Below, piece after piece: positions 1 through 31,321 of a stretch of DNA of 64,000 nucleotides. The notes beneath the pieces are model-generated. The model saw only the letters and a program-made list of their open reading frames with translations, was not told the DNA's origin and ran no database searches. The DNA comes from Rhodothermales bacterium (lineage in GTDB: Bacteria; Bacteroidota; Rhodothermia; Rhodothermales; UBA10348), in assembly GCA_040221055.1 (NCBI GenBank), contig JAVJVN010000022.1, positions 1-64,000 on the forward strand, read 5' to 3'. A program made the translations under genes and the position numbers. The stretch's first letter is position 1. Each line of letters begins with the position of its first letter.

Positions 1-30
1 GGGGGGGGTGGTTTGTGTTCCCGCCCCCTC

Positions 31-68
31 AAAAAATGGGGGGGGGGGCCGCTCCCGCCCCCCCCCCC
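31..68 (-). terminator. Possible intrinsic terminator with a G11/C11 stem
   Basis: On the minus strand, just past the stop codon of the giant surface protein gene, eleven G are followed by a nine-base loop, eleven C, one A and then six T. This has the form of a rho-independent terminator. An 11-bp homopolymeric G:C stem is very unusual, and bases 1-97 as a whole consist of G and C runs. A contig-edge sequencing or assembly artefact is therefore a serious alternative. Confidence 0.4.
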
Positions 69-6000: not shown

Positions 6001-7882
6001 GGCAGTCCTGATCATCCTCGTTCGCGTCGTCGTTGCCAGGCGTGGAGTCCACATCCGGTTCGTTGGCCGTCATGACTTCCGCGCAGTTCTCGACCGTGGA
6101 GGTCGCTGTTGACGTAGCGTTGATGGTCAGCGTCACCGATGCGCCCGGTGCCAGGTTGGCCGGCGACCACACCTTCGTGCCATTGTTGAATGAGCCCGAA
6201 GCGGTGGATGCCGATACGAACGTAGCGTTGGCGGGGAACGTGTCGGCGACCGAAATGCCGGTTGCCGTCGTGAACGTCGTGAAGAAGAAATCGTGGTCGT
6301 CCGAGCTGCCTCCGAATCCGGCGAAGGAAACGGCTTCGATGTTGTCGGTCGGGTTGACCGCCAGGTTGGCCACGCTCGAAAGATCGACGCGGACCAGGAA
6401 GTCGCCGTTGGCCGACACGTCGAACGTATAGCTGCCGTCGCCGGCGGTAACCGTGGAAGCCAGCAGTTCGTCTGTACCTGGCTCGTAGGTGCCCACCGTG
6501 CCGTTGTCACGGAACAGCTCGACCGTCACACCCGGAGCGGCAACGCCCGAGTTGGCCTGCGGGCTGTTGGCCAGGTCCGTGGTGGCATTGGTCAGGGTCA
6601 CTGTGTATTCGATGGTGTCGAGGGCCTGCGTTTCCTGCACGGAGGCGGTCTTGTCGAGCTCCAGGTCGATGAGTGCCGGGTCCACGAAGACCGAGCCCAT
6701 GATGACGTTGTCCGGCTCGGTGAGGCAGGCAATGCCTTCATAGTCGCCGAATCCGTTCACGCCCAGGTTCTCGATGAGGGTCGTGGTGGAGGAGAAGGGG
6801 CTGAGGCTGATTTCCACGACGGAGCGCGTGGCGTCACCGGTAATGGCCAAGAGGCGGCCGTCCGGGTAGAAACCGAGTCCTTCGACGTTCGGAACGTCCA
6901 GGTCACCGATGTCGGTGGTGGTGCCGTCGGTCTTGTTGATCAGGATGAGACGGCTGTCCTGGCCGCTCTCGTTCTGGATGGCGTACATCTTGCCGTCGAA
7001 GGTCGAAATGGCAATGTCATCGATGTCGTCCAGGTTGTTGATTTCATCGACACCCACGTAGTCGACGCCGGGTCCGAACGCATTCTTGACGACCTTCCCG
7101 GTGGTCACATCGACCTGGAACAGGACGTCCTCACCATTGCGTCGGGACGTGGCGTACATGATGTCCTGGAAGGGATCCCACGTCAGGCCGTCCACATCGC
7201 TCAGCGAGATGGTACCGAATTCACCCGATCCCGAACCGAATGAGCCCACCACCGTGGCCGCTCCGGTCAATACATTGATGGTGACGAGCTCATTGGCATC
7301 ACCCCCATACAGGATGCCTGTCTCCGGAACGAACGCCAGCGCCTCCGTATTCGGCGTGCCCGTCATGCCGATATAGAACTCGTTGAACGAGCCATCCAGG
7401 AAGGTCAGCCCATCGGCGCTCCCGGATTTGAAGTTGTCATTGTCCGCAATCAGGTAGCAGAATGCGTCCTCAGGGTCGGGTACGGGATACACGTTCGCGT
7501 CGCAGAAGTCGATGTTCGAGATGCCCATGCCCGTCGTCCCGCTGGGATGCATCCACGACGTGCCGGAGAACGTGTAGGTGGTCGTACCGGCCTTCACTTT
7601 GCCGTTCTCGATGTACTTGTCCAGCGTGAACCCGACGTATTCAGTCGACGATCCGGACTTGAAGATCCAGCTCGTGACAGTGACGTATTCGCCGTCCACC
7701 AGGATCTGGACGTTGTTCTTGCCGATGTCCAGCCCTTCGATTTTGCACTCTGTTGCCACCCCTGCAAAGGTGGCGGGCACGGCCTGTGCCGTATTGGCGA
7801 ACCAGCCCGGCAGGGCGGCGGCCAGAACGAGCACCAGGAAGGTGGATGCAACGAAGAGGGAACGGAATGAGGTTGTACGCAT
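98..7882 (-). CDS. Giant secreted mosaic surface protein with C-terminal sorting domain
   Basis: A 2,594-aa secreted protein. The chosen ATG precedes a clear signal peptide (LFVASTFLVLVLAAALPG, ending near TAQA); a start 25 codons upstream would bury it. After a short N-terminal domain comes a YncE-like propeller region, then alternating DUF11 repeats ('TITWTVGSL' type) and SdrD-B-like repeats ('GTVFKDNDQDG', 'GDLVFQDQNNNGQ'). Two copies of a roughly 435-aa compound unit lie at about 5.9-4.7 kb and 4.7-3.4 kb. The C-terminal third carries Asp-box (BNR/sortilin-like) propeller repeats such as 'RSTDGGENW'. The last 80 or so residues begin 'NYPNPFNPQTTI' and match a type IX secretion/FlgD-like sorting domain. 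It is likely surface-attached or released; adhesion is only an inference. Confidence 0.85.
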   Translation of the reverse strand: MRTTSFRSLFVASTFLVLVLAAALPGWFANTAQAVPATFAGVATECKIEGLDIGKNNVQILVDGEYVTVTSWIFKSGSSTEYVGFTLDKYIENGKVKAGTTTYTFSGTSWMHPSGTTGMGISNIDFCDANVYPVPDPEDAFCYLIADNDNFKSGSADGLTFLDGSFNEFYIGMTGTPNTEALAFVPETGILYGGDANELVTINVLTGAATVVGSFGSGSGEFGTISLSDVDGLTWDPFQDIMYATSRRNGEDVLFQVDVTTGKVVKNAFGPGVDYVGVDEINNLDDIDDIAISTFDGKMYAIQNESGQDSRLILINKTDGTTTDIGDLDVPNVEGLGFYPDGRLLAITGDATRSVVEISLSPFSSTTTLIENLGVNGFGDYEGIACLTEPDNVIMGSVFVDPALIDLELDKTASVQETQALDTIEYTVTLTNATTDLANSPQANSGVAAPGVTVELFRDNGTVGTYEPGTDELLASTVTAGDGSYTFDVSANGDFLVRVDLSSVANLAVNPTDNIEAVSFAGFGGSSDDHDFFFTTFTTATGISVADTFPANATFVSASTASGSFNNGTKVWSPANLAPGASVTLTINATSTATSTVENCAEVMTANEPDVDSTPGNDDANEDDQDCHSYEPQRDPGTPDVKVEKTASETDVDLGDAFSYTLTASNIGDGPATGVVLTDALPYGVAFVSANPNAGVSYDANTHTITWTVGSLAPSASTQLVVNVMVDWMTGSYTGGFLQDGVYTLQNHPDGSVAPPLYGLRLDKLFGGKTPITFDFEHAQSDMRMRILNGGTSIEIYGQAWGGNDTGGAYANAGLWNIQFVYNTTVSQVPGDDDLYVTAETDHGSVTPLYTTAYFNAGQVYHLMPKSDGNFSFRLGDEDNDNGHRGFDGISGWGWLKHNGDGQLSHKATSDFLFTAHPAPDAMENCVELSAMNETDSNAANNEACVDTPPVDPGANSLSGTVFKDNDQDGILDGGEPGQGGVTINVYGDLNGNGVKDGGEPLYATTVTAGNGTYSVAIPTVGHFVVESVHPATYPANAVLTTDNVETAFFASFGNHDANNNFGFYVQQAPPEVDIKVQKDGDLSAADLGDTIEYTLTATNMGNAQATGVVLTDELPYGVSFVSANPNAGVVYDANTHTITWTVGTLAGGASSQITVNVLVDWMTGTFSGSFLQDGFYRLINHPVHGQAPPPYGLRLDQLYAGTGPITFNFDHPQSDMRMRIENGGSTVTLFGTAWGGIDTGAAYSQDGLWEIYMQYDGTVAPAGGDDDLLVTVETDNGTITPLYTTAYFNAGDPFALTGKSDGNYTFRLGNEDDDLGFRSTPGVSGWGWLSHDGPGDMGYYSASDWGFMATPAPDALENCLTVHALDQMDANPNNDASCFTTVTPPVDDPGLNFITGTVFLDLDQDGVRDGGEPGQDNVTVTVYRDVNTNGQVDGGDTVFSSTVTPANGFYAVLVPETGSFVVTTDFPGSYPAGSALTTDNVETAVFANYWNVDSGNDFGFFAAQQGPEIDLSLEKTADVNAVQVGGFITYTLTLTNSAQAAQAATGIEIWDTFPHALIEIQSTAPAAGVVFNNNNGTLKWTIPSLAPGASTQLTILAEATAVGNAVNCAQVGTATGNDPDSTPGNGNVNEDDYDCFPVEITVNAPVTGSIGDLVFQDQNNNGQWDPGEPGLGGVLVRLYAGACGPNGTPIALRTTQANGSYLFTGLPAGDYCVDVRDDTVPFGYVLSTGNDPMTVTLAQGDAYDDADFGYYYDPQLTTVDLELVKEVDTSSPALNDDVTFTITIRNQGPGTATGVIVRDIIPVGLVFVESSATQGGYEATKLGYWTIGTLEPGQTEVLTITTTVVITNMIENIAQVVAVDQPDIDSTPGNGIPSEDDQDNALVESRGPGAAGDITRAECADIGTINAILYEPNHNIVLAGSEVGSVHISNDQGLNWPVFMQSNGGAAIQDIVATPNGSAIYVGTFGDGVWRSTDGGENWSKYKLGTNTVNDLDLDLNNNLLYAAVEGKVMFIDLGTGTTGTVAGDPFNDQVLSLVYDENTNRLIAASAGAGAWKYEAGSWTDVSAGLPIGKINTMLQTPAGAVLAGTNSDGVYVFGGGGWFQYGMGLDSEPIESLGLGGNGEILAGARESGAYYFNQVSFEWESIGNLPIFTVASMTAGAQGEVYAGAPGEGIYVIYDTDFDGIPDQAHQVANFMTSAVIQDMVVAPNGDIYAASYGYGVLYSSDGGNCWTRMNRGLENLWTFGIARTSDGTLFIGIWADGLGGIWRSTNNGRDWEFLAYGDRQIISLAVDPNDEDIIYAGANLAGEGSIVRSLDGGDTWQQLQSFIQPVWAIQIDPNNSNRIVVGTLGDGIYESLDQGATWNQIGAVANGLADPNGFDLKFGPTGRLFAATNAGVYVYDDQGGFPTYTWSLYGNGSEVYQMRTIEFVGSDIYAGTWNAGLVFYDSGTGDWTDLGLADIPVIAFAVHQASETLVIGTSGSGVYLNHNIRASFATDTEEAPTGSELPSAFSLDQNYPNPFNPQTTIPFGLTESGPVRIAVYDVLGREVSMLVDRVMEPGQHRITWEAGDLPTGNYLVRMEAGGKVFTRSMVLMK

Positions 7883-21168: not shown

Positions 21169-21984
21169 ATGCGACTGACTGAATACGAACGAAAGGCCCA
21201 ACGCGAAATCGAGGAATGGCAACACGGGGATGCATCCCTGATTGCCCAGGCCATGAATTGGGCCATGCAGCCCATGGATTGGGTGGTCCGCCGGGCCGTT
21301 CCGGCCGACATGGTGGATCAGGCCGATCGCTCCATCAGTGATTTCCTGTCCATGCTGAGCGATGCCTCCGCATGGACGTACGACCCCGATGAAGTCCTGG
21401 CCGCCGCGCGCAATGCCGGTCTGGAGGTGGAACAGGTCCGGGATCTGAGGGATCGTCCGCTCGAAACCCTGGACAAACTCGCCAAGGCATACGTCTCGGA
21501 AAACGCCATCCTGGCGGCGGTTGAAGGAGGTGGCACCGGCCTGGGCGGCGCGTTCCTGATTGCCGCCGACATCCCGCTCCTCTTCACCATCAACCTGCGG
21601 CTCATCCAGCAGATCGGTGCAGCGTACGGGTTTCCGGTGAAAGGCCCCGAATACCGGGCCATTGTGCTCTCCATCTTCAACGTCGCTGCCTCATCGGGAC
21701 GCGAAGCCAAGAACGAAGCGCTCCGCGAAATCACGGTGGCCGCGGCTGCGTTTGCCGGTGAGCTGGGGTACAAGGGCCGCGTCAGCGGCACGTTCCGGGA
21801 CCAGAACCGGCATCTGCCCCGCGAAATTGCCAAGAACATCGTGGGCCGGAAGCTCGCGCAAGCCATTCCCATTGCCGGAGCGGCTGTCGGCGCCGGAATC
21901 AACTATTGGTTCACAACCGAGACCGCCGAAACGGCCTATATGTTGTTCCGGGCGTTGTACCTTGAGCGAAAAGAACGCTCCTGA
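21169..21984 (+). CDS. EcsC-family protein
   Basis: A 271-aa protein resembling the EcsC family. The N-terminal helical half is amphipathic. The middle holds the glycine-rich hydrophobic segment 'VEGGGTGLGGAFLIAADIPL' and 'TINLRLIQQIGAAYGF'. Near the end is a second Ala/Gly-rich segment 'AIPIAGAAVGAGINYW'. These paired glycine-rich stretches are the family hallmark. Biochemical function is not established. The last base of its stop is shared with the ATG of der, suggesting translational coupling. Confidence 0.8.
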   Translation: MRLTEYERKAQREIEEWQHGDASLIAQAMNWAMQPMDWVVRRAVPADMVDQADRSISDFLSMLSDASAWTYDPDEVLAAARNAGLEVEQVRDLRDRPLETLDKLAKAYVSENAILAAVEGGGTGLGGAFLIAADIPLLFTINLRLIQQIGAAYGFPVKGPEYRAIVLSIFNVAASSGREAKNEALREITVAAAAFAGELGYKGRVSGTFRDQNRHLPREIAKNIVGRKLAQAIPIAGAAVGAGINYWFTTETAETAYMLFRALYLERKERS

Positions 21985-23291
21985 TGTCCCTCGTCGCCAT
22001 CGTGGGTCGCCCGAATGTGGGCAAGTCCACGCTTTTCAACCGCCTCACCGAGGATCGTCGCAGTATTGTGGACGATCAGCCCGGCGTTACACGTGACCGC
22101 GTATATGGTCATGTGGAATGGGGTGGCCGCACGTTTTCCGTGGTCGATACGGGAGGATTCGTGCCGCAGTCCGAGGATCGCTTCGAGGCTGCCATACGGG
22201 AGCAGGTGCTGCTCGCCATCGAGGAGGCCGACCTCATCCTGTTCGTCGTGGATGTCACGGTAGGCATCACGGATCTGGATGATGAGATGGCCAAGCTCCT
22301 CAGGCGCAGCAATCGGCCCGTCCTGCTGGTTCCCAACAAGGCGGACAACGATGAGCGCCGGTGGGATGCGAACGCGTTCTATACGCTGGGATTCGAAGAG
22401 ATGTATGCGCTGTCGTCCATCAACGGGATGGGCACCGGAGACATGCTGGACCGCGTCCTGGAGCTCTTGCCCCCGGAGCCCGAGCCTGAGCCCGATGCAC
22501 GTCCCCGGATTGCCATCATCGGCCGCCCGAACGTGGGCAAGTCCTCGCTGACGAATGCCCTGTTAGGCACGGACCGGTCCATCGTGACCGAGATCAGCGG
22601 CACCACGCGTGACTCCATAGATACCGCGCTCGTCTACAAGGGTCGGGACATCGTCCTCGTGGATACCGCAGGTCTGCGCCGGAAAGCACGCATAAAGGAG
22701 AACGTGGAGTTCTACTCCTGGCTTCGGACGGAGCGGGCCATTGAGACCTGCGACGTCGCCGTGTTGCTCATTGATGCCAGTGAAGGCCTCGAAGCCCAGG
22801 ACATCCGCGTCTTGACGAGCGCCGAGCGCATGAAAAAAGGCCTCGTGATCGGCATCAACAAGTGGGACCTGTACGCCGAGAAGGAGACCAATTCCGTGCG
22901 GGATTACGAACGGCTCATTCGTGCCCGGCTGAAGACGCTCGAGTACATCCCCATTTTCACGATCTCCGCCGTCACCAAGCAACGCATTTACAAGGTGCTC
23001 GACGAGGCCCTGGCCGTCATTGACCGCCGCGGCAAGCGCGTGACGACGAGCGAGCTGAACGACGTCATCCTGCCGGCCATCCAGCGGGTGCATCCGCCCA
23101 CGTACCGCGGGCACCACGTCAAGATCAAGTTCGCCACGCAGGTCCGCGCCGATCCGCCGGTCTTCAACTTCTTCTGCAACTACCCGAAGGGTGTGAAGGA
23201 GTCCTACCGGCGCTACCTGGAGAACCAGCTCCGCGAAGCCTTCGACTTCCAGGGCGTCCCGCTGACCCTGACGTTCAAGGAAAAGAGCTGA
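21984..23291 (+). CDS. der: Ribosome-assembly GTPase Der (EngA)
   Basis: A 435-aa protein with two tandem GTPase domains and a C-terminal KH-like domain, needed for 50S subunit maturation. Each G domain has its P-loop ('GRPNVGKSTLFN' and 'GRPNVGKSSLTN'), the DxxG box ('VDTGGF' and 'VDTAGLRR') and a base-recognition motif ('PNKADN' and 'INKWDL'). The KH-like end has 'HVKIKFATQVRADPPVF' and 'PKGVKESYRRYLENQL'. The downstream 161 bp to the AT-rich island contain no gene and no clear terminator. Confidence 0.96.
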   Translation: MSLVAIVGRPNVGKSTLFNRLTEDRRSIVDDQPGVTRDRVYGHVEWGGRTFSVVDTGGFVPQSEDRFEAAIREQVLLAIEEADLILFVVDVTVGITDLDDEMAKLLRRSNRPVLLVPNKADNDERRWDANAFYTLGFEEMYALSSINGMGTGDMLDRVLELLPPEPEPEPDARPRIAIIGRPNVGKSSLTNALLGTDRSIVTEISGTTRDSIDTALVYKGRDIVLVDTAGLRRKARIKENVEFYSWLRTERAIETCDVAVLLIDASEGLEAQDIRVLTSAERMKKGLVIGINKWDLYAEKETNSVRDYERLIRARLKTLEYIPIFTISAVTKQRIYKVLDEALAVIDRRGKRVTTSELNDVILPAIQRVHPPTYRGHHVKIKFATQVRADPPVFNFFCNYPKGVKESYRRYLENQLREAFDFQGVPLTLTFKEKS

Positions 23292-23452
23292 ACTGTCCGC
23301 CGCAGGTCGCCAATCGAGAATGCGCTGCCGGTGTGAAGTCCGGTTTCACGGGCACGAATTTGTGCACTGGAATGGCAGCGCAGCGTCGCGTATGCTGAAA
23401 GGAGGGGCATTGCTGTGATGTACCCAGGTTACACCAAGCCCCGTCTGGCACC

Positions 23453-24379
23453 ATGAAGTTTGCTCACCTTCTCAGAACCTGTGCTATCCCCCCCCTGATT
23501 CTCTTTGTTGCCATCCTCCTCGGGATATCGCGTCCTGCGGGAGCGCAGATTGAATTGGACAGTGCAGGGAGAATAGGCGTTGGATCCGCGACTCCTGTCT
23601 CAAACACGCAGCTGAAACTGAGCACGAGTTTGGCTGGCGGCATTTCCATCTTTTCAACCGGAAGTTCCGGAGCTGATACGTACGGCTTGTATTCAAGCAT
23701 TTCAACCGGCGGTACATATCAGTATGGAGTGTATGGAGAGGCGTCAACGTCTGCGACCAAGAATTATGGATCAGCAGGAAAGGCCACCGGAGCGACGCAC
23801 AATTATGGTTCCTACGGTATCGCGGGGTCAGGCTCTGCTATTGGTGCGTATGGGTGGGCTCTGTCTGGTACAACTCGCTACGGGATATATGGCGGTGTAA
23901 CTTCTCCGGGAGCGAGTGATTATGGCGTGTATTCGTACGGCAACATGTACACGACCGGTACGCTGACTCAAATGTCCGATGGGAGATTCAAGAGAGATAT
24001 ATCAGGAATTCCCGACAACATCAAGTCTGGCCTCCTGAGTAGCAATCCGGCCAGATACAGGTTCGCCACATCTGCGGAATTGACAGCCTCAGGGCTCCCC
24101 GAGGCATCACTTTCATCCGGGATTCGCTATGGCTTCGTTGCTCAAGAGATGCAGGTTTATTTGCCAGAACTGGTTACCAACGAGACGTTGACCGTCCTTC
24201 CTCCCGATGAGGACGCGTTGGAGCCGAGCTTGACTGAAACTCTGGGAATAAATTACATCGAACTGATCCCGATTCTAGTCGCTATTGTCCAGGATCAACA
24301 GGCTCAGATCGAAGCTCTTCAGACGGCCGTTCGTGGCGCGGGTATTGAGCTGCCTGATTCAGAATCAGACAATAAATAA
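23453..24379 (+). CDS. Secreted tail-fibre-like protein with peptidase S74 (endosialidase chaperone) domain
   Basis: A 308-aa protein with a signal peptide ending near 'RPAGAQ'. The body (about 35-175) is a low-complexity Gly/Ser/Tyr-rich repeat ('YGVYGEAS', 'NYGSYGIAG', 'RYGIYGGV'). From about 178 it has an S74 intramolecular-chaperone domain: 'MSDGRFKRDISGI' supplies the Ser and Lys of the self-cleavage motif, then 'YGFVAQEMQVYLPELV' and 'INYIELIPILVAIVQDQQAQ'. In phage tail spikes this domain trimerises the fibre and cuts itself off. Base composition is visibly more AT-rich than the flanking der and nuoI genes, suggesting transfer. Confidence 0.75.
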   Translation: MKFAHLLRTCAIPPLILFVAILLGISRPAGAQIELDSAGRIGVGSATPVSNTQLKLSTSLAGGISIFSTGSSGADTYGLYSSISTGGTYQYGVYGEASTSATKNYGSAGKATGATHNYGSYGIAGSGSAIGAYGWALSGTTRYGIYGGVTSPGASDYGVYSYGNMYTTGTLTQMSDGRFKRDISGIPDNIKSGLLSSNPARYRFATSAELTASGLPEASLSSGIRYGFVAQEMQVYLPELVTNETLTVLPPDEDALEPSLTETLGINYIELIPILVAIVQDQQAQIEALQTAVRGAGIELPDSESDNK

Positions 24380-24386
24380 CTGAGTC

Positions 24387-24407
24387 AATTCACTTGGGTC
24401 GTGAATT
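24387..24407 (+). other. Short hairpin after the S74 gene
   Basis: AATTCAC and GTGAATT form a 7-bp perfect inverted repeat around a 7-nt loop, 8 bp past the stop codon. There is no T run, so a terminator role is uncertain. Confidence 0.3.
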
Positions 24408-24499
24408 TGCAGCATGATGAGATTGAAAGAACTTTCGACTAAGCAGTCAAACCCGGAATACACTCTTCATGAAAGAATGTCGATACGAGAGGATACCAT

Positions 24500-25870
24500 A
24501 TGAAAGAGTTTTTAACAAAATTTATTATCCTGTTAGGTTTCTCAGTCGTTTTAATAACACTTGATGTTTTAGCTCAGAGTGCTGTCGTCTCTCTTGACTC
24601 AGATGGAAACCTTCTGATTACTGCAGAAATGGACTATGCCGAGCAAACCTTTGATGAATGGTGGGCAGAACCATATGGGAACTCATCAGATCCGGCAGCT
24701 AACATCTACAATTGGCTGTATTTTGACATCTACAACGGAAATTTCGAGAACAATTATACATGGTTTACTCTTGATGAACAATCGTTCAGAAATACGTGGC
24801 CAAATTTTGACAGTTCACATTCGTATTGGGATAGTTTTCTGAAGCATGCCTACTATTTCGGACTGTATATATTCGGCGACGACACATTTGGCGAAGATTA
24901 TGCGAACAATACGACGGGAATTGACAGTTTGCAATTCAACGGTGCGAATTCGTATATCGCAGGCAAGTATTATGCGGGAATCAATTCTTCATGGAATGGC
25001 ACACTGCATTACGATCTTGAGATTCCTTTTGATCCGCCAGTTAACGACCCCTTGGATGGAACGCTGACACAAGGCACAAACACGCCTCGAACAGACCCTG
25101 TAATTCATACTATTGAAAGTGGTTATGGAACGGGGAGTTGGATTGTCGGCCCTTCGGGTGTTGTAGATTATGAGTCTGTTGGTCTTGTGAGTGGTTCGTA
25201 CGAGTTCGTTGGGTACATCAACACCCACGACGATGTGGGCCCTCCAAAGATAAATTACATCTCAGCATGGCAGCCCAACGTGCCGTATGTACGGTTTACG
25301 ATTGTGGATGAGGATAACCCAATGACTCCGCGAACTACAATTGGTCACTCTACGTCGTATGTGGGCGAAGCCAGCATTGTGACCAATGACACTAAATTCG
25401 TCATCGAAAGTGGAGCCCATGTGAAGTTCATCGTCAAGAATGATGCGATCACACTTTCAAGTGGCTTTCATGCAAAACTAGGCAGTAGTTTCAGAACGTA
25501 TTCAGACGGTGGTTCGACATCTTTGTCTAAGCGTGGTTATAACAACATGCCAGACGCACAGATACATACAGAAGACGCTACGCAAGTTGTTGAACCTGGA
25601 CTTCTGTCCGTGTATCCGAATCCAACCCGAGGATCTGTTCGTATTGGATATACCATTCTGGATGAAGGTCCCGTATCGATGGTCGTATATGACATATTGG
25701 GTAGAGAGATCTCGGTCTTGGCACGTAACCTTGTTCAGTCTGAAGGAGGACATAGTGTAACGTGGAATCTGAACGATGTTCTGGTTAACCGTTCGTCGAG
25801 TGGCGTGTACATAGTCAGATTTGTGGCAAATGACCGCGCCAGTACAACCATGTTTACCGTAATACCGTGA
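24500..25870 (+). CDS. Secreted protein with C-terminal sorting domain, function unknown
   Basis: A 456-aa protein with a signal peptide (FIILLGFSVVLITLDVLAQS). It is rich in Asn, Tyr and Trp over residues 40-190 ('FDIYNGNFENNYTWF'), with no recognised enzyme motif. Residues 280-325 contain 'NDTKFVIESGAHVKF' and 'SSGFHAKLGSSF', which resemble the repeat found before sorting domains in related secreted proteins. The C-terminus begins 'SVYPNPTRGSVRIGYT' and includes 'VYDILGREI', a type IX sorting-domain pattern. A Shine-Dalgarno GAGAGGA lies 6 nt before the ATG, unlike most genes here. AT-rich codon use sets it apart from the rest of the window. Confidence 0.75.
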   Translation: MKEFLTKFIILLGFSVVLITLDVLAQSAVVSLDSDGNLLITAEMDYAEQTFDEWWAEPYGNSSDPAANIYNWLYFDIYNGNFENNYTWFTLDEQSFRNTWPNFDSSHSYWDSFLKHAYYFGLYIFGDDTFGEDYANNTTGIDSLQFNGANSYIAGKYYAGINSSWNGTLHYDLEIPFDPPVNDPLDGTLTQGTNTPRTDPVIHTIESGYGTGSWIVGPSGVVDYESVGLVSGSYEFVGYINTHDDVGPPKINYISAWQPNVPYVRFTIVDEDNPMTPRTTIGHSTSYVGEASIVTNDTKFVIESGAHVKFIVKNDAITLSSGFHAKLGSSFRTYSDGGSTSLSKRGYNNMPDAQIHTEDATQVVEPGLLSVYPNPTRGSVRIGYTILDEGPVSMVVYDILGREISVLARNLVQSEGGHSVTWNLNDVLVNRSSSGVYIVRFVANDRASTTMFTVIP

Positions 25871-25935
25871 CTTTCGTCACATGACAACGATATGGCGCCA
25901 GTGTAAAATTAGACTGCGCCTTTGCTGGGGAAAAT

Positions 25936-27606
25936 GTGACCTGCTGCCAATTTACGTCTGTCTGTCTCGTTCTATTCGTTGGCATTTGGTCTGATGCTGA
26001 AGCACAAGACGTCAGAGATGAAACGGGTGAGTGCCTCCCGGCACTTGGCGCGGATCATTTGTCCGTCGGTAATGTCCGAGCGCTGATAACGAACAATGGA
26101 GAGCTGTTCGCGAGCCGAGACACGCTTGGTTATGAGGTGCCGCGTGGCTCAGGGCTTCACTCACTGGGAGGATTGAATCTGTGGATAGGGGGGATAGTCG
26201 ACGACCAGAAAAGTGCATCAGGGGCGGAACGAGCTGTTCAGACGGCATATGCCGAATTTTGGCCGGGTCCGATTCTTGATGACGAAAATCCACCTTCTAA
26301 TTGCAACGAGTATGACCGACTATACCGCATCGTTTACAACGATGATATCATCGGACAATTGCACCCGTCCAACGCGGTACTGACCTGGCCCACACATTTG
26401 GGTGCTAAGTACGAAAACGTGAACAAGGTTGATGAATATCAGCCACGCGATGGAGACAGACCGCTGGTCTTCGGAGACGAGATGTTGTGGTGGCTCATGA
26501 ACGACCGGGGTAATTCACATCTGAATACCAGAGGGAGGCCAGTTGGCGTTGAGGTCAGAACCATGGCATATGCCTTCGGCGTGCCCGGTACGGTTGGGAA
26601 TACAACTTTCTATCGATACGAAATCAAAAACAGGAACAGTGTACCCATAGACAGCATGTTCGTCGGTTGGAAGATAGACGGTATTGATGATCGCGCCAGT
26701 GATCCCGACAATTACATGGGCACGGACACGACATTGAGCCTCATGTACATCTACAACAGCGATGCGGATGATATCGCGTATGGCTCTCAGCCACCCGCAA
26801 TAGGTGTCTTCGTTCTAGAAAACGAGCTGAAGCGTTCATCTGGTGCTGGATACGAAAGGCGCGTTCTGGCACCCGAGTTCACATCTACTATCCCGATCTA
26901 TCCTCAGATTGGCACGGCAGTGCGAAGTGCTGACGATATGTATACTTGGCTGAATGGGCAGTGGCCAATACTTCGACATTTATCGACTCTCCCATACGAT
27001 ATGCGTGAGGGTGGAGACGGGGGGTATCTACATCCCGTTGATGGTCCATCGGTATCCTTCATGTATCCGGGAGACCCGATAAACGGAAGCTTCTGGTCCA
27101 TGATGAATACAGACGGTAATGGACACCAGGCTCGCCGTGAATACCCGGTAATGTTGGGTAGCGTCGGCCCCGTCTCGCTCCAGCCGAATGATATCCACGT
27201 CGTCACCATCGCGATTGTATGGGCGCAAGGGCAAAACAACTGGGATTCTGTTCGGAAACTTCGCGATGAAGTTGCTTACATACGCAGTATTGCCCCAATA
27301 CTGACTTCTCCCAGGTCTATTCCAAAATCGACACCTACTGAACCGTCGCTTTCGTTGTCGTTAGGTATTTTTCCCAACCCATTTCGCAGCTCAACCTCCG
27401 TTTCCTTTTCCATCCCGACTTCGGCAGACATTGAAATCAGCGTATTCGACGTACTTGGGAGACAGGTCGGATCTGTGGCTGATGGCTTCTTTGAGGTGGG
27501 TACGTACACACGGTCATTTGATGCATCCGAGCTGACGCCGGGCGTCTATTATATGCGCTTCAGTATCATCGGCAAGAGCTTCGCGCGCAGCATCGTCGTT
27601 ATGTAG
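25936..27606 (+). CDS. Secreted protein with C-terminal sorting domain, function unknown
   Basis: A 556-aa protein. The start is taken as GTG 25936, which yields a signal peptide ('CQFTSVCLVLFVGIW' then 'DAEAQ') after a GGGGA; no in-frame ATG gives a better one. The body contains 'TTFYRYEIKNRNSVPIDSMF' and 'IVWAQGQNNWDSV', a pattern seen in large secreted proteins of this bacterial group but with no assigned activity. The C-terminus 'LGIFPNPFRSSTSVSFSI' with 'VFDVLGRQVG' is a type IX sorting domain. It is the last gene of the AT-richer stretch, although its own composition is intermediate. Confidence 0.75.
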   Translation: MTCCQFTSVCLVLFVGIWSDAEAQDVRDETGECLPALGADHLSVGNVRALITNNGELFASRDTLGYEVPRGSGLHSLGGLNLWIGGIVDDQKSASGAERAVQTAYAEFWPGPILDDENPPSNCNEYDRLYRIVYNDDIIGQLHPSNAVLTWPTHLGAKYENVNKVDEYQPRDGDRPLVFGDEMLWWLMNDRGNSHLNTRGRPVGVEVRTMAYAFGVPGTVGNTTFYRYEIKNRNSVPIDSMFVGWKIDGIDDRASDPDNYMGTDTTLSLMYIYNSDADDIAYGSQPPAIGVFVLENELKRSSGAGYERRVLAPEFTSTIPIYPQIGTAVRSADDMYTWLNGQWPILRHLSTLPYDMREGGDGGYLHPVDGPSVSFMYPGDPINGSFWSMMNTDGNGHQARREYPVMLGSVGPVSLQPNDIHVVTIAIVWAQGQNNWDSVRKLRDEVAYIRSIAPILTSPRSIPKSTPTEPSLSLSLGIFPNPFRSSTSVSFSIPTSADIEISVFDVLGRQVGSVADGFFEVGTYTRSFDASELTPGVYYMRFSIIGKSFARSIVVM

Positions 27607-27707
27607 TGTTCAGCCTCTCATCAATACCGTTTGAAGGTCGCGGGAAGGGAGGAATCTGACGCCGCCTCGTGTTATCTTGGGCGACTGACACACTTCACAC
27701 ACGTGAT

Positions 27708-28325
27708 ATGGCTGGTACCTACAAAAACACATCCACTCCGAACGAACGGAAACTGAATTTCTGGGAGAAGCTGTATCTCCCCGAGGTGTTCAAGGGGCTG
27801 GGATACTCCTTCCGGAAGATCTACCAGGAGCCCATGTACACCTTCCAGTACCCGGAAGAGCAGTGGTATCCGCCGGACAGCTATCGCGGCCGACCGGTGC
27901 TGGTGGAAGAGGAGGGCAAGCCGCGTTGCGTGTCCTGCAACCTGTGTGCCCGCGCCTGCCCGCCGATGGCCATTTCCATGCAATCCGGTGAGATTGACGG
28001 CCCGAAGGAACGCGAACCGGCGTGGTTCGAAATCAACATGCTGCGCTGCATCTATTGCGGATTCTGCGAGGAAGTGTGTCCGGAAGAAGCCATTGTGATG
28101 TCCAAGGAATACGACCTCACGTTCCAGCACCGGGATGAGGCCATTTTCGGGCTCGACCGCCTGCTGGTCCCCAAGGAGCGCCTGGCCGATCGCCTGGACT
28201 ACCTGGATCGCCAGCGGAATCCACAGTACGGGTCGGATTGGTCCTACCGCAAGGACAACAACCGGCATTCGCTCCGTGACAGCCCCTTCCTGGGTGCGTT
28301 GGCCGCAGACATGCACGCGTCGTGA
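27708..28325 (+). CDS. nuoI: NADH-quinone oxidoreductase subunit I-like ferredoxin protein
   Basis: A 205-aa protein with two [4Fe-4S] motifs, '[12 protein letters not shown]' and '[12 protein letters not shown]', followed by '[11 protein letters not shown]', the NuoI pattern. In complex I this subunit carries clusters N6a and N6b between the peripheral arm and the membrane. The N-terminus '[29 protein letters not shown]' region also fits NuoI. ATG 27708 was chosen over an upstream non-ATG start. No other nuo gene lies in the window, so the subunit is encoded apart from at least its immediate partners. It overlaps the next gene's GTG by 4 nt. Confidence 0.87.
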
Positions 28326-31247: not shown

Positions 31248-31321
31248 GGGCCCTTAGCTCAGCGGTTCAGAGCGCTCGCCTCACACGCGAGAGGTCACAG
31301 GTTCGAATCCCGTAGGGCCCA
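31248..31321 (+). tRNA. tRNA-Val (anticodon CAC)
   Basis: A complete cloverleaf can be drawn: acceptor GGGCCCT pairing with AGGGCCC, a D arm GCTC/GAGC, an anticodon stem CTCGC/GCGAG with loop CTCACAC (anticodon CAC, reading GUG), and a T arm ending in GGTTCGAATCCC. The discriminator base is A and the CCA end is not encoded. An intrinsic terminator follows directly. Confidence 0.96.

Follow-up and report, generated by a model that had tools for sequence, protein, structure and literature searches.

A putative modular cassette for a surface fibre, with a possible phase switch, inserted between der and nuoI in a Rhodothermales bacterium

Peptidase_S74 domains (PF13884) are intramolecular chaperones of phage tailspikes, with a counterpart in the ICA domain of MYRF, cargo of type A of the type IX secretion system (T9SS) carries a C-terminal sorting domain (PF18962/TIGR04183), and supersandwich domains are found in enzymes of the glycoside hydrolase (GH) families GH94, GH15 and GH116. 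Homopolymeric-tract contingency loci are known from Neisseria and Campylobacter, while invertible promoters are the better known way of switching in Bacteroides. For poly-A and poly-T contingency tracts a 5' location is given in PMC2831843. Here we describe a block of three genes between der and nuoI of a Rhodothermales bacterium (genome of 3.32 Mb in 22 contigs), located in positions 1–64000 of its contig C22, the 64,000 nucleotides that we call the window. Throughout the text C3, C10 and C22 are contigs of this source genome (G000), G001, G002 and G003 are congeners, and a C8 or C10 tract is a run of eight or ten cytosines. We give about even chances to the reading as a whole, in which the block is an inserted cassette of modular make-up that encodes a surface fibre and may hold a phase switch.

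Insertion between der and nuoI

The block (23292–27672, + strand) is flanked on the left by the core gene der (21984–23291, +; TIGR03594) and on the right by a nuoI-like gene for a ferredoxin subunit (27669–28325, +, with ATG 27708 as a possible start; TIGR01971). It holds, as a sequence-only reading of this DNA had stated, three genes for predicted secreted proteins, all on the + strand (23453–24379, 24500–25870 and 25936–27606, genes 1 to 3 hereafter). Its limits are defined by the empty site of three congeners and by the homology to paralogous cassette DNA of C3, which begins 38 bp past the der stop, at 23329; the left edge lies between that stop (23291) and 23329, and the right edge between 27607 and approximately 27672. 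Ahead of nuoI, the motif TATCTTG (27673–27679) is by eye common to the empty sites and to the right side of the block.

We gathered 73 loci with NuoI (almost every named record is a metagenome-assembled genome of Rhodothermales or of Bacteroidetes not further specified) and measured the gap between the aligned ends of der and nuoI in the 47 that have both genes in order, which is not the case in the other 26. The gap is 48–262 bp in 44 of the 47 loci and 3.7–5.3 kb in three. In the congeners (L009, L010, and L018) it is 48–49 bp, the site being empty in all three. Given these tiny gaps, in the congeners and in 44 of the 47 measurable relatives, the block is very probably a lineage-specific insertion between der and nuoI that breaks no gene and carries a recurring three-gene unit. 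The acquisition suggested by the sequence-only reading is thus borne out, and the same three genes at the same place throughout the family were looked for and not found, relatives of gene 1 being present in 2 of 27 family genomes. Loss of an ancestral block from every relative would agree with the presence of the same kind of cassette in one congener at another place, but we consider this very improbable because many separate losses would be needed, with gaps of 48–262 bp in 44 of 47 loci and unrelated genes in the three longer ones.

These three filled sites contain, as named by eye, relaxase-like and transposase-like open reading frames (ORFs) in L070 (4753–10000, another Rhodothermales genome), several enzyme-like ORFs in L071, and one large PA14/cytochrome-like protein in L077. 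A dedicated exchange site was rejected in view of this unrelated cargo, and the idea of a fixed site is not supported either, related cassettes being located elsewhere.

The three genes have a guanine-plus-cytosine (GC) content of 0.521, 0.444, and 0.518, and of 0.524, 0.433, and 0.548 at third codon positions (GC3), compared with means of 0.623 (standard deviation 0.019) and 0.719 (standard deviation 0.055) in 32 other window ORFs of at least 200 amino acids, which were picked mechanically and possibly include shadow ORFs. In 1-kb steps GC goes from about 0.62 to 0.44–0.52 in the block, and elsewhere in the window it never falls below 0.570. The AT-richness noticed earlier is confirmed by sliding GC and by GC3, but not its restriction to the first two genes, all three being AT-richer.

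Neither integrase or transposase, nor att or tRNA boundary, nor target duplication was seen in the block, and the earlier statement that integrase, tRNA and repeat boundary are missing there stands. The tRNA search of the window gave a single tRNA-Val at 31248 and none within the block, and the repeats found in 23200–27800 are short ones that do not bound it. No tandem array was found, and no Rfam RNA at the gathering score, by which an RNA element was ruled out. Promoter-like sites (7 versus 5.2 expected) and terminator-like sites (3 versus 3.6 expected) are near expectation, so they were not used. A defence island was discarded, since none of the block proteins was matched by PADLOC, and so was a plasmid origin, since gene 2 without its sorting domain (the only one of the three searched) matched no plasmid.

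A recurrent cassette of fibre and partner genes

Gene 1 (23453–24379, +) codes for a predicted secreted S74 fibre protein of 308 amino acids, made up of a signal peptide (by eye), a stalk of YG repeats, the S74 domain (residues 175–242) and a coiled-coil-like tail (by eye). The Peptidase_S74 match (PF13884) has an E value of 1.9e-6 and 28.5 bits against a cut-off of 22. Alignment and motif listing place in this domain the sequence S-D-G-R-F-K (23975–23992, +), containing Ser175 and Lys180, five residues apart and invariant across the four cassettes aligned. S578 and K583 of MYRF have the same spacing, and PMC3742443 describes their phage equivalents as a catalytic dyad. No T9SS sorting domain was matched in gene 1 at E ≤ 0.1 in Pfam and NCBIfam.

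Sorting domains of T9SS type A are, on the other hand, present in both partner proteins. Gene 2 (24500–25870, +; 456 amino acids, predicted secreted) has one at residues 371–449 (PF18962, 29.7 bits versus a cut-off of 27; TIGR04183, 37.1 versus 23), together with a weak 3-coathanger match at residues 302–337, below cut-off, and an N-terminal region that an order-wide search of 114 genomes found in this genus only. Queried against the genome, gene 2 gives 34 matches, mostly to its sorting domain. In gene 3 (25936–27606, +; 556 amino acids, predicted secreted) the sorting domain occupies residues 478–554 (PF18962, 34.7 bits versus 27; TIGR04183, 33.7 versus 23). The signal peptides of both were read by eye. 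According to the Q-rule of Bacteroidetes, mature secreted proteins start with Gln (PMC5837995). All three predicted mature block proteins have Gln as their first residue, as the rule says (cleavage sites by eye).

The structure model of gene 3 has a mean predicted local distance difference test (pLDDT) of 82.5 and shows a supersandwich-like domain at residues ~35–464. This domain (35–464) matches dextran dextrinase (9ju0_CCC) with Z 19.9 over 259 aligned residues and a root-mean-square deviation of 3.5, and the model also matches disaccharide phosphorylases (Z 17–19) and GH116 glucosidases (Z ~17). No catalytic alpha/alpha barrel follows the beta domain in the model, residues 476–555 being the sorting domain, and the model has only few short helices. 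As far as the model goes, gene 3 might bind glycans. Its family is present in 26 of the 27 family genomes and stands in tandem in L195, L196, and L197; the member of this family that was tested has no Pfam match beyond the sorting domain and a predicted fold that is a stand-alone supersandwich-like domain.

A remnant of a prophage or tail-like particle, with the S74 gene as its tail fibre, would account for the PHROGs tail-fibre matches of gene 1 (best E 2.4e-13, residues 68–292) and for its weak tblastn matches to 7 phage records, which cover 39–50% of the protein. We regard such an origin as extremely unlikely, considering that no other phage-like gene was seen in the block, that gene 1 has a predicted signal peptide and two T9SS-sorted partners, that a PHROGs search at E 0.01 gave nothing for either partner gene (genes 2 and 3), and that identity to the phage records is 28–32% and limited to residues 135–290.

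The same unit, i.e., a Peptidase_S74 fibre, a genus-restricted T9SS protein and a T9SS protein with a supersandwich fold, was found elsewhere in the genome and in the genus. Gene 1 has relatives in C3 (50% identity), contig C10 (39%) and the congener G003 (41%), while the rest of the 27 family genomes gave none at E ≤ 0.001; among the matches listed for PF13884, an S74 domain appears in one more genome of the family, G017. Contig C10 has the same gene order as the window (39–62% identity), followed by a lipoprotein-like gene and then recG, while C3 has gene 1 and the first part of gene 2, divergent behind priA and cut by the contig end. The G003 cassette again has the same order, split over two contigs. 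Paralogues of gene 2 are full in contig C10 (56%) and partial in C3; without its sorting domain, gene 2 is found in 3 of the 114 order genomes, all of this genus, and in G002 its relative stands alone and is lipoprotein-like by eye. The recurrence of the same genes in the same order in contig C10, C3 and G003 indicates that they persist as a unit.

In G001, G002, and G003, priA lies next to recG on a single contig. The aligned ends of the two genes are 1.3, 2.6, and 1.3 kb apart, respectively, and the interval holds no match to S74, gene 2 or gene 3. Since C3 ends with priA plus cassette and contig C10 with cassette plus recG, the two, which are unjoined contigs, most likely represent both sides of one filled priA-recG site. 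A 17-bp sequence, CCTRASCTGWGCGATTC, is common to the cassette-side ends of C3, contig C10 and the two G003 contigs. In G003 the insertion sequence (IS) element is flanked on both sides by ATCAG (by eye), as expected if insertion into gene 2 had duplicated a 5-bp target, and in contig C10 it stands in place of the initial codons of gene 1. C3 and contig C10 have no flanking repeat in common, which recombination between two IS copies would fit. The window has no close match to CCTRASCTGWGCGATTC (two at 3 mismatches, 0.89 expected).

GC ranges from 0.42 to 0.55 in the cassette genes of G000 and G003 that were measured; four other relatives of gene 3 in this genome have values of 0.59–0.62 (three of them) and 0.52 (the fourth). 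These data bear on the simplest alternative, an ordinary horizontally acquired island in which AT-rich foreign DNA came in by recombination in the core flanks and the secreted proteins are unconnected. The low GC and GC3, the empty site and the patchy relatives of gene 1 (6 of 114 order genomes at E ≤ 1e-10) would all be expected from it. We nevertheless find it unlikely, as contig C10 repeats the genes in their order, as do C3 and G003 as far as their contigs reach, and the paralogues are AT-rich too. Because the paralogous cassette genes are AT-rich yet only 33–55% identical, low GC appears to be a property of the family and not a clock; it was dropped as a date of acquisition, and a recent arrival is not upheld. 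No donor of the block came to light. What looked like an AT-rich island is here a recurrent cassette family rather than a single import.

Relationships among the cassettes differ from one gene to the next. The maximum-likelihood tree of gene 1 groups window and C3 (92/89), and the grouping of window with contig C10 is rejected by the approximately unbiased (AU) test (p 0.017), whereas the first 180 residues of gene 2 group window with contig C10 (100/100), rejecting window with C3 (AU p 0.0014). The gene 3 tree also has window with contig C10 (88/93), and the region upstream of the block genes sides with C3, as gene 1 does. A C3-type upstream-plus-fibre module joined to a contig C10-type partner module would give this pattern, and we lean towards a swapping of fibre and partner parts among the cassettes, judging by these trees. 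The exchange suggested earlier finds support in the conflicting trees of genes 1 and 2. Some caution is due: the window-C3 grouping of the S74 tree (92/89) involves a long branch and few rows, the AU tests were made after the trees had been seen, and summed pairwise scores slightly favour window with contig C10 for gene 1 (1162 versus 1144). It is this disagreement between pairwise scores and likelihood trees that keeps our confidence at a modest level.

The conserved upstream region (23329–23404, +), which holds GCGTCGCGTATGCTGA, has a local alignment score of 50 against the C3 upstream region (maximum of 500 shuffles, 23), compared with 27 for the best match elsewhere in the window and 15 for the G003 upstream region, and is probably a promoter region. 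The strong Shine-Dalgarno of the sequence-only reading is indeed present (AAAGGAGGGG, 23398–23407); it lies 46–55 nucleotides ahead of the S74 start and suits a possible upstream ORF of 12 codons (23418–23456, +, read from the sequence), which overlaps the S74 start as ATGA; translational coupling through this overlap is possible. A short upstream ORF with a Shine-Dalgarno-like stretch and an ATGA overlap is also seen by eye in the C3 paralogue (L148, ~6858–6911).

A poly-C tract in the signal-peptide codons

A homopolymer scan detected a C8 tract in frame at codons 12–15 of gene 1 (23488–23495, +), within the signal peptide, and the C3 paralogue has, at L148 6942, ten cytosines at the same codons, so that its ATG no longer shares a reading frame with the remainder of the gene. 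These are the only C or G runs of eight or more away from contig starts in the 116.5 kb of the genome scanned. As background among relatives, 1.10 Mb of loci around nuoI contain 7 internal runs, and 617 kb of S74 loci contain 2. In the window there are 81 C/G runs of at least five (222 predicted) and 15 of at least six, i.e., long runs are avoided; the argument from rarity is founded on these observed counts and on the relatives, not on base statistics.

A second family of tracts was found in G003, where three copies of a short LuxR-type gene have C12, C10 and C9 tracts just past the start codon. One copy is divergent from the S74 gene and two from secreted-protein-like genes on contig C101, and the C9 copy alone reads in frame with its own ATG. 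The one copy tested has a GerE domain (28.4 bits versus 23.5), and the copies (L149 8062, L149 11752, and L150 1900) are 78–100% identical over 68 residues. These genes are possibly a family of switchable regulators. The starts of contigs C22 (window 1–68) and C3 (L148 1–75) also show several G/C runs of 8–13, which look like contig-end artefacts but could be variable tracts.

The pattern, known from consensus sequences alone, would be that of contingency loci, and a phase-variable gene 1, through slippage at the C8 tract, is a tentative proposal to which we give slightly less than an even chance. Several points speak for restraint. First-order base statistics alone predict about 6 C/G runs of eight or more per window, the tracts were read in consensus only, and a C8 tract is short for a fast switch. 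The ten-cytosine paralogue precedes an IS-truncated gene 2 and may reflect decay instead of switching, and an internal GTG after its tract could still start it. An assembly or replication error spot in Pro-Pro codons, with no regulatory role, is a serious if somewhat less probable explanation: consensus sequences, odd G/C runs at contig starts and a damaged cassette around the longer tract are all what it would lead one to expect, while the rarity of such runs elsewhere, the use of the same codons in two paralogues that are 50% identical and the second tract family beside the cassette of a congener are not.

S74 fibres and T9SS partners in a wider context

A profile built from the four cassette S74 proteins has matches in 24 of 392 sampled genomes of the phylum, and PF13884 in at least 108 of the 392. 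We listed 23 S74 places outside the genus, of which 20 and one more, G341, were fetched, and 40 places were hand-picked at about one per genus among the PF13884 matches listed. ORFs were called mechanically (at least 100 amino acids for the enrichment counts and 80 for the neighbours of gene-1 relatives), and sorting domains were scored with a hidden Markov model trained on ten examples from this genus, which misses divergent ones. In 60 S74 loci a sorting domain is present in 25 of 87 adjacent same-strand genes versus 13 of the 351 remaining genes there (Fisher p 8.6e-11; odds ratio 10.5). When families f18 and f19 are left out the figures are 13/58 versus 12/233 (p 1.7e-4), and with the first locus of each of 26 families 11/35 versus 8/142 (p 1.0e-4). 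The S74 ORF itself ends in a sorting domain in 5 of the 60 loci, and the ORF or an adjacent same-strand gene has one in 28; Pfam confirms the domain in four genes near S74 genes. The pairing is enriched, not universal.

Two of these loci have S74 and T9SS sorting domain within one ORF (L231, 4872–6533, and L239, 5641–7824). In eight others, all of one family (L230, L233, L234, L236, L237, L238, L240, and L242), a small protein of about 170–185 amino acids, mostly sorting domain, stands directly before a large S74 gene, apparently in one conserved place, and is a candidate display adaptor.

Put together, the proposed mechanism would start with export of gene 1 by Sec, after which the protein would form a homotrimeric beta-stalk folded by the S74 domain, which would then cut itself off. 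Genes 2 and 3 would cross the outer membrane by the T9SS, the supersandwich of gene 3 would bind glycans, and the fibre, lacking a sorting domain, would be displayed at the surface together with them. Slippage of the C8 tract in the signal-peptide codons would turn the fibre off and on, and the cassettes would move and swap parts by recombination, with no integrase of their own, and be broken by a common IS element.

Display of the fibre with its T9SS partners seems to us plausible, if a little short of evenly poised. Telling against it, in 32 of the 60 S74 loci neither the gene nor its neighbours carry a sorting domain, a single family supplies 10 of the 28 positives, which by their neighbours apparently represent one orthologous locus, and the gene-1 relatives L225, L229, and L243 have no sorting-domain neighbour. 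The putative T9SS link comes from the sorting domains of the cargo, and the structure model of gene 2 is unusable (pLDDT 44). We give a rather low probability to the wider reading, a modular and phase-variable display system of Bacteroidota. In it, trimeric S74 fibres with no sorting signal would reach the surface together with T9SS-sorted partners encoded next to them, single fibres would be switched by slippage of poly-C within their signal-peptide codons or within a LuxR-type gene nearby, and modules of fibre and partner would be reshuffled among the cassettes of the genus.

If true, this would explain how fibres free of sorting signals come to be displayed at the surface of T9SS bacteria and would suggest a role for the tail-fibre-like S74 genes of Bacteroidota. 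Slipped-strand switching in Rhodothermales would also join the invertible promoters of Bacteroides. No paper joining S74 or endosialidase-type fibres with the T9SS or with Bacteroidetes, the T9SS with phase variation, or Rhodothermales with phase variation, was found among open-licence papers, some of which were screened by their titles and the opening of their abstracts. The components are all of known types, and their combination was not found described in the literature searched.

With phage tailspikes and MYRF, gene 1 shares the S74 domain, the Ser/Lys spacing and the preceding repeat stalk, but differs from them in its predicted signal peptide, its sorting-domain neighbours and the poly-C tract in its signal-peptide codons. 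Genes 2 and 3 resemble T9SS type A cargo in their sorting domain at the C-terminus, behind a putative signal peptide read by eye, although they accompany a fibre without such a domain and the gene 2 region is restricted to the genus among the order genomes. The model of gene 3 resembles in fold the supersandwich domain of GH94, GH15 and GH116 enzymes, with a sorting domain in the place of their catalytic alpha/alpha barrel. Finally, the tract, a candidate switch, resembles those of homopolymeric contingency loci by its location in the 5' coding region of a putative surface-protein gene with paralogues in different frames, and differs from the known ones in belonging to a Rhodothermales relative and in its linkage to T9SS cargo.

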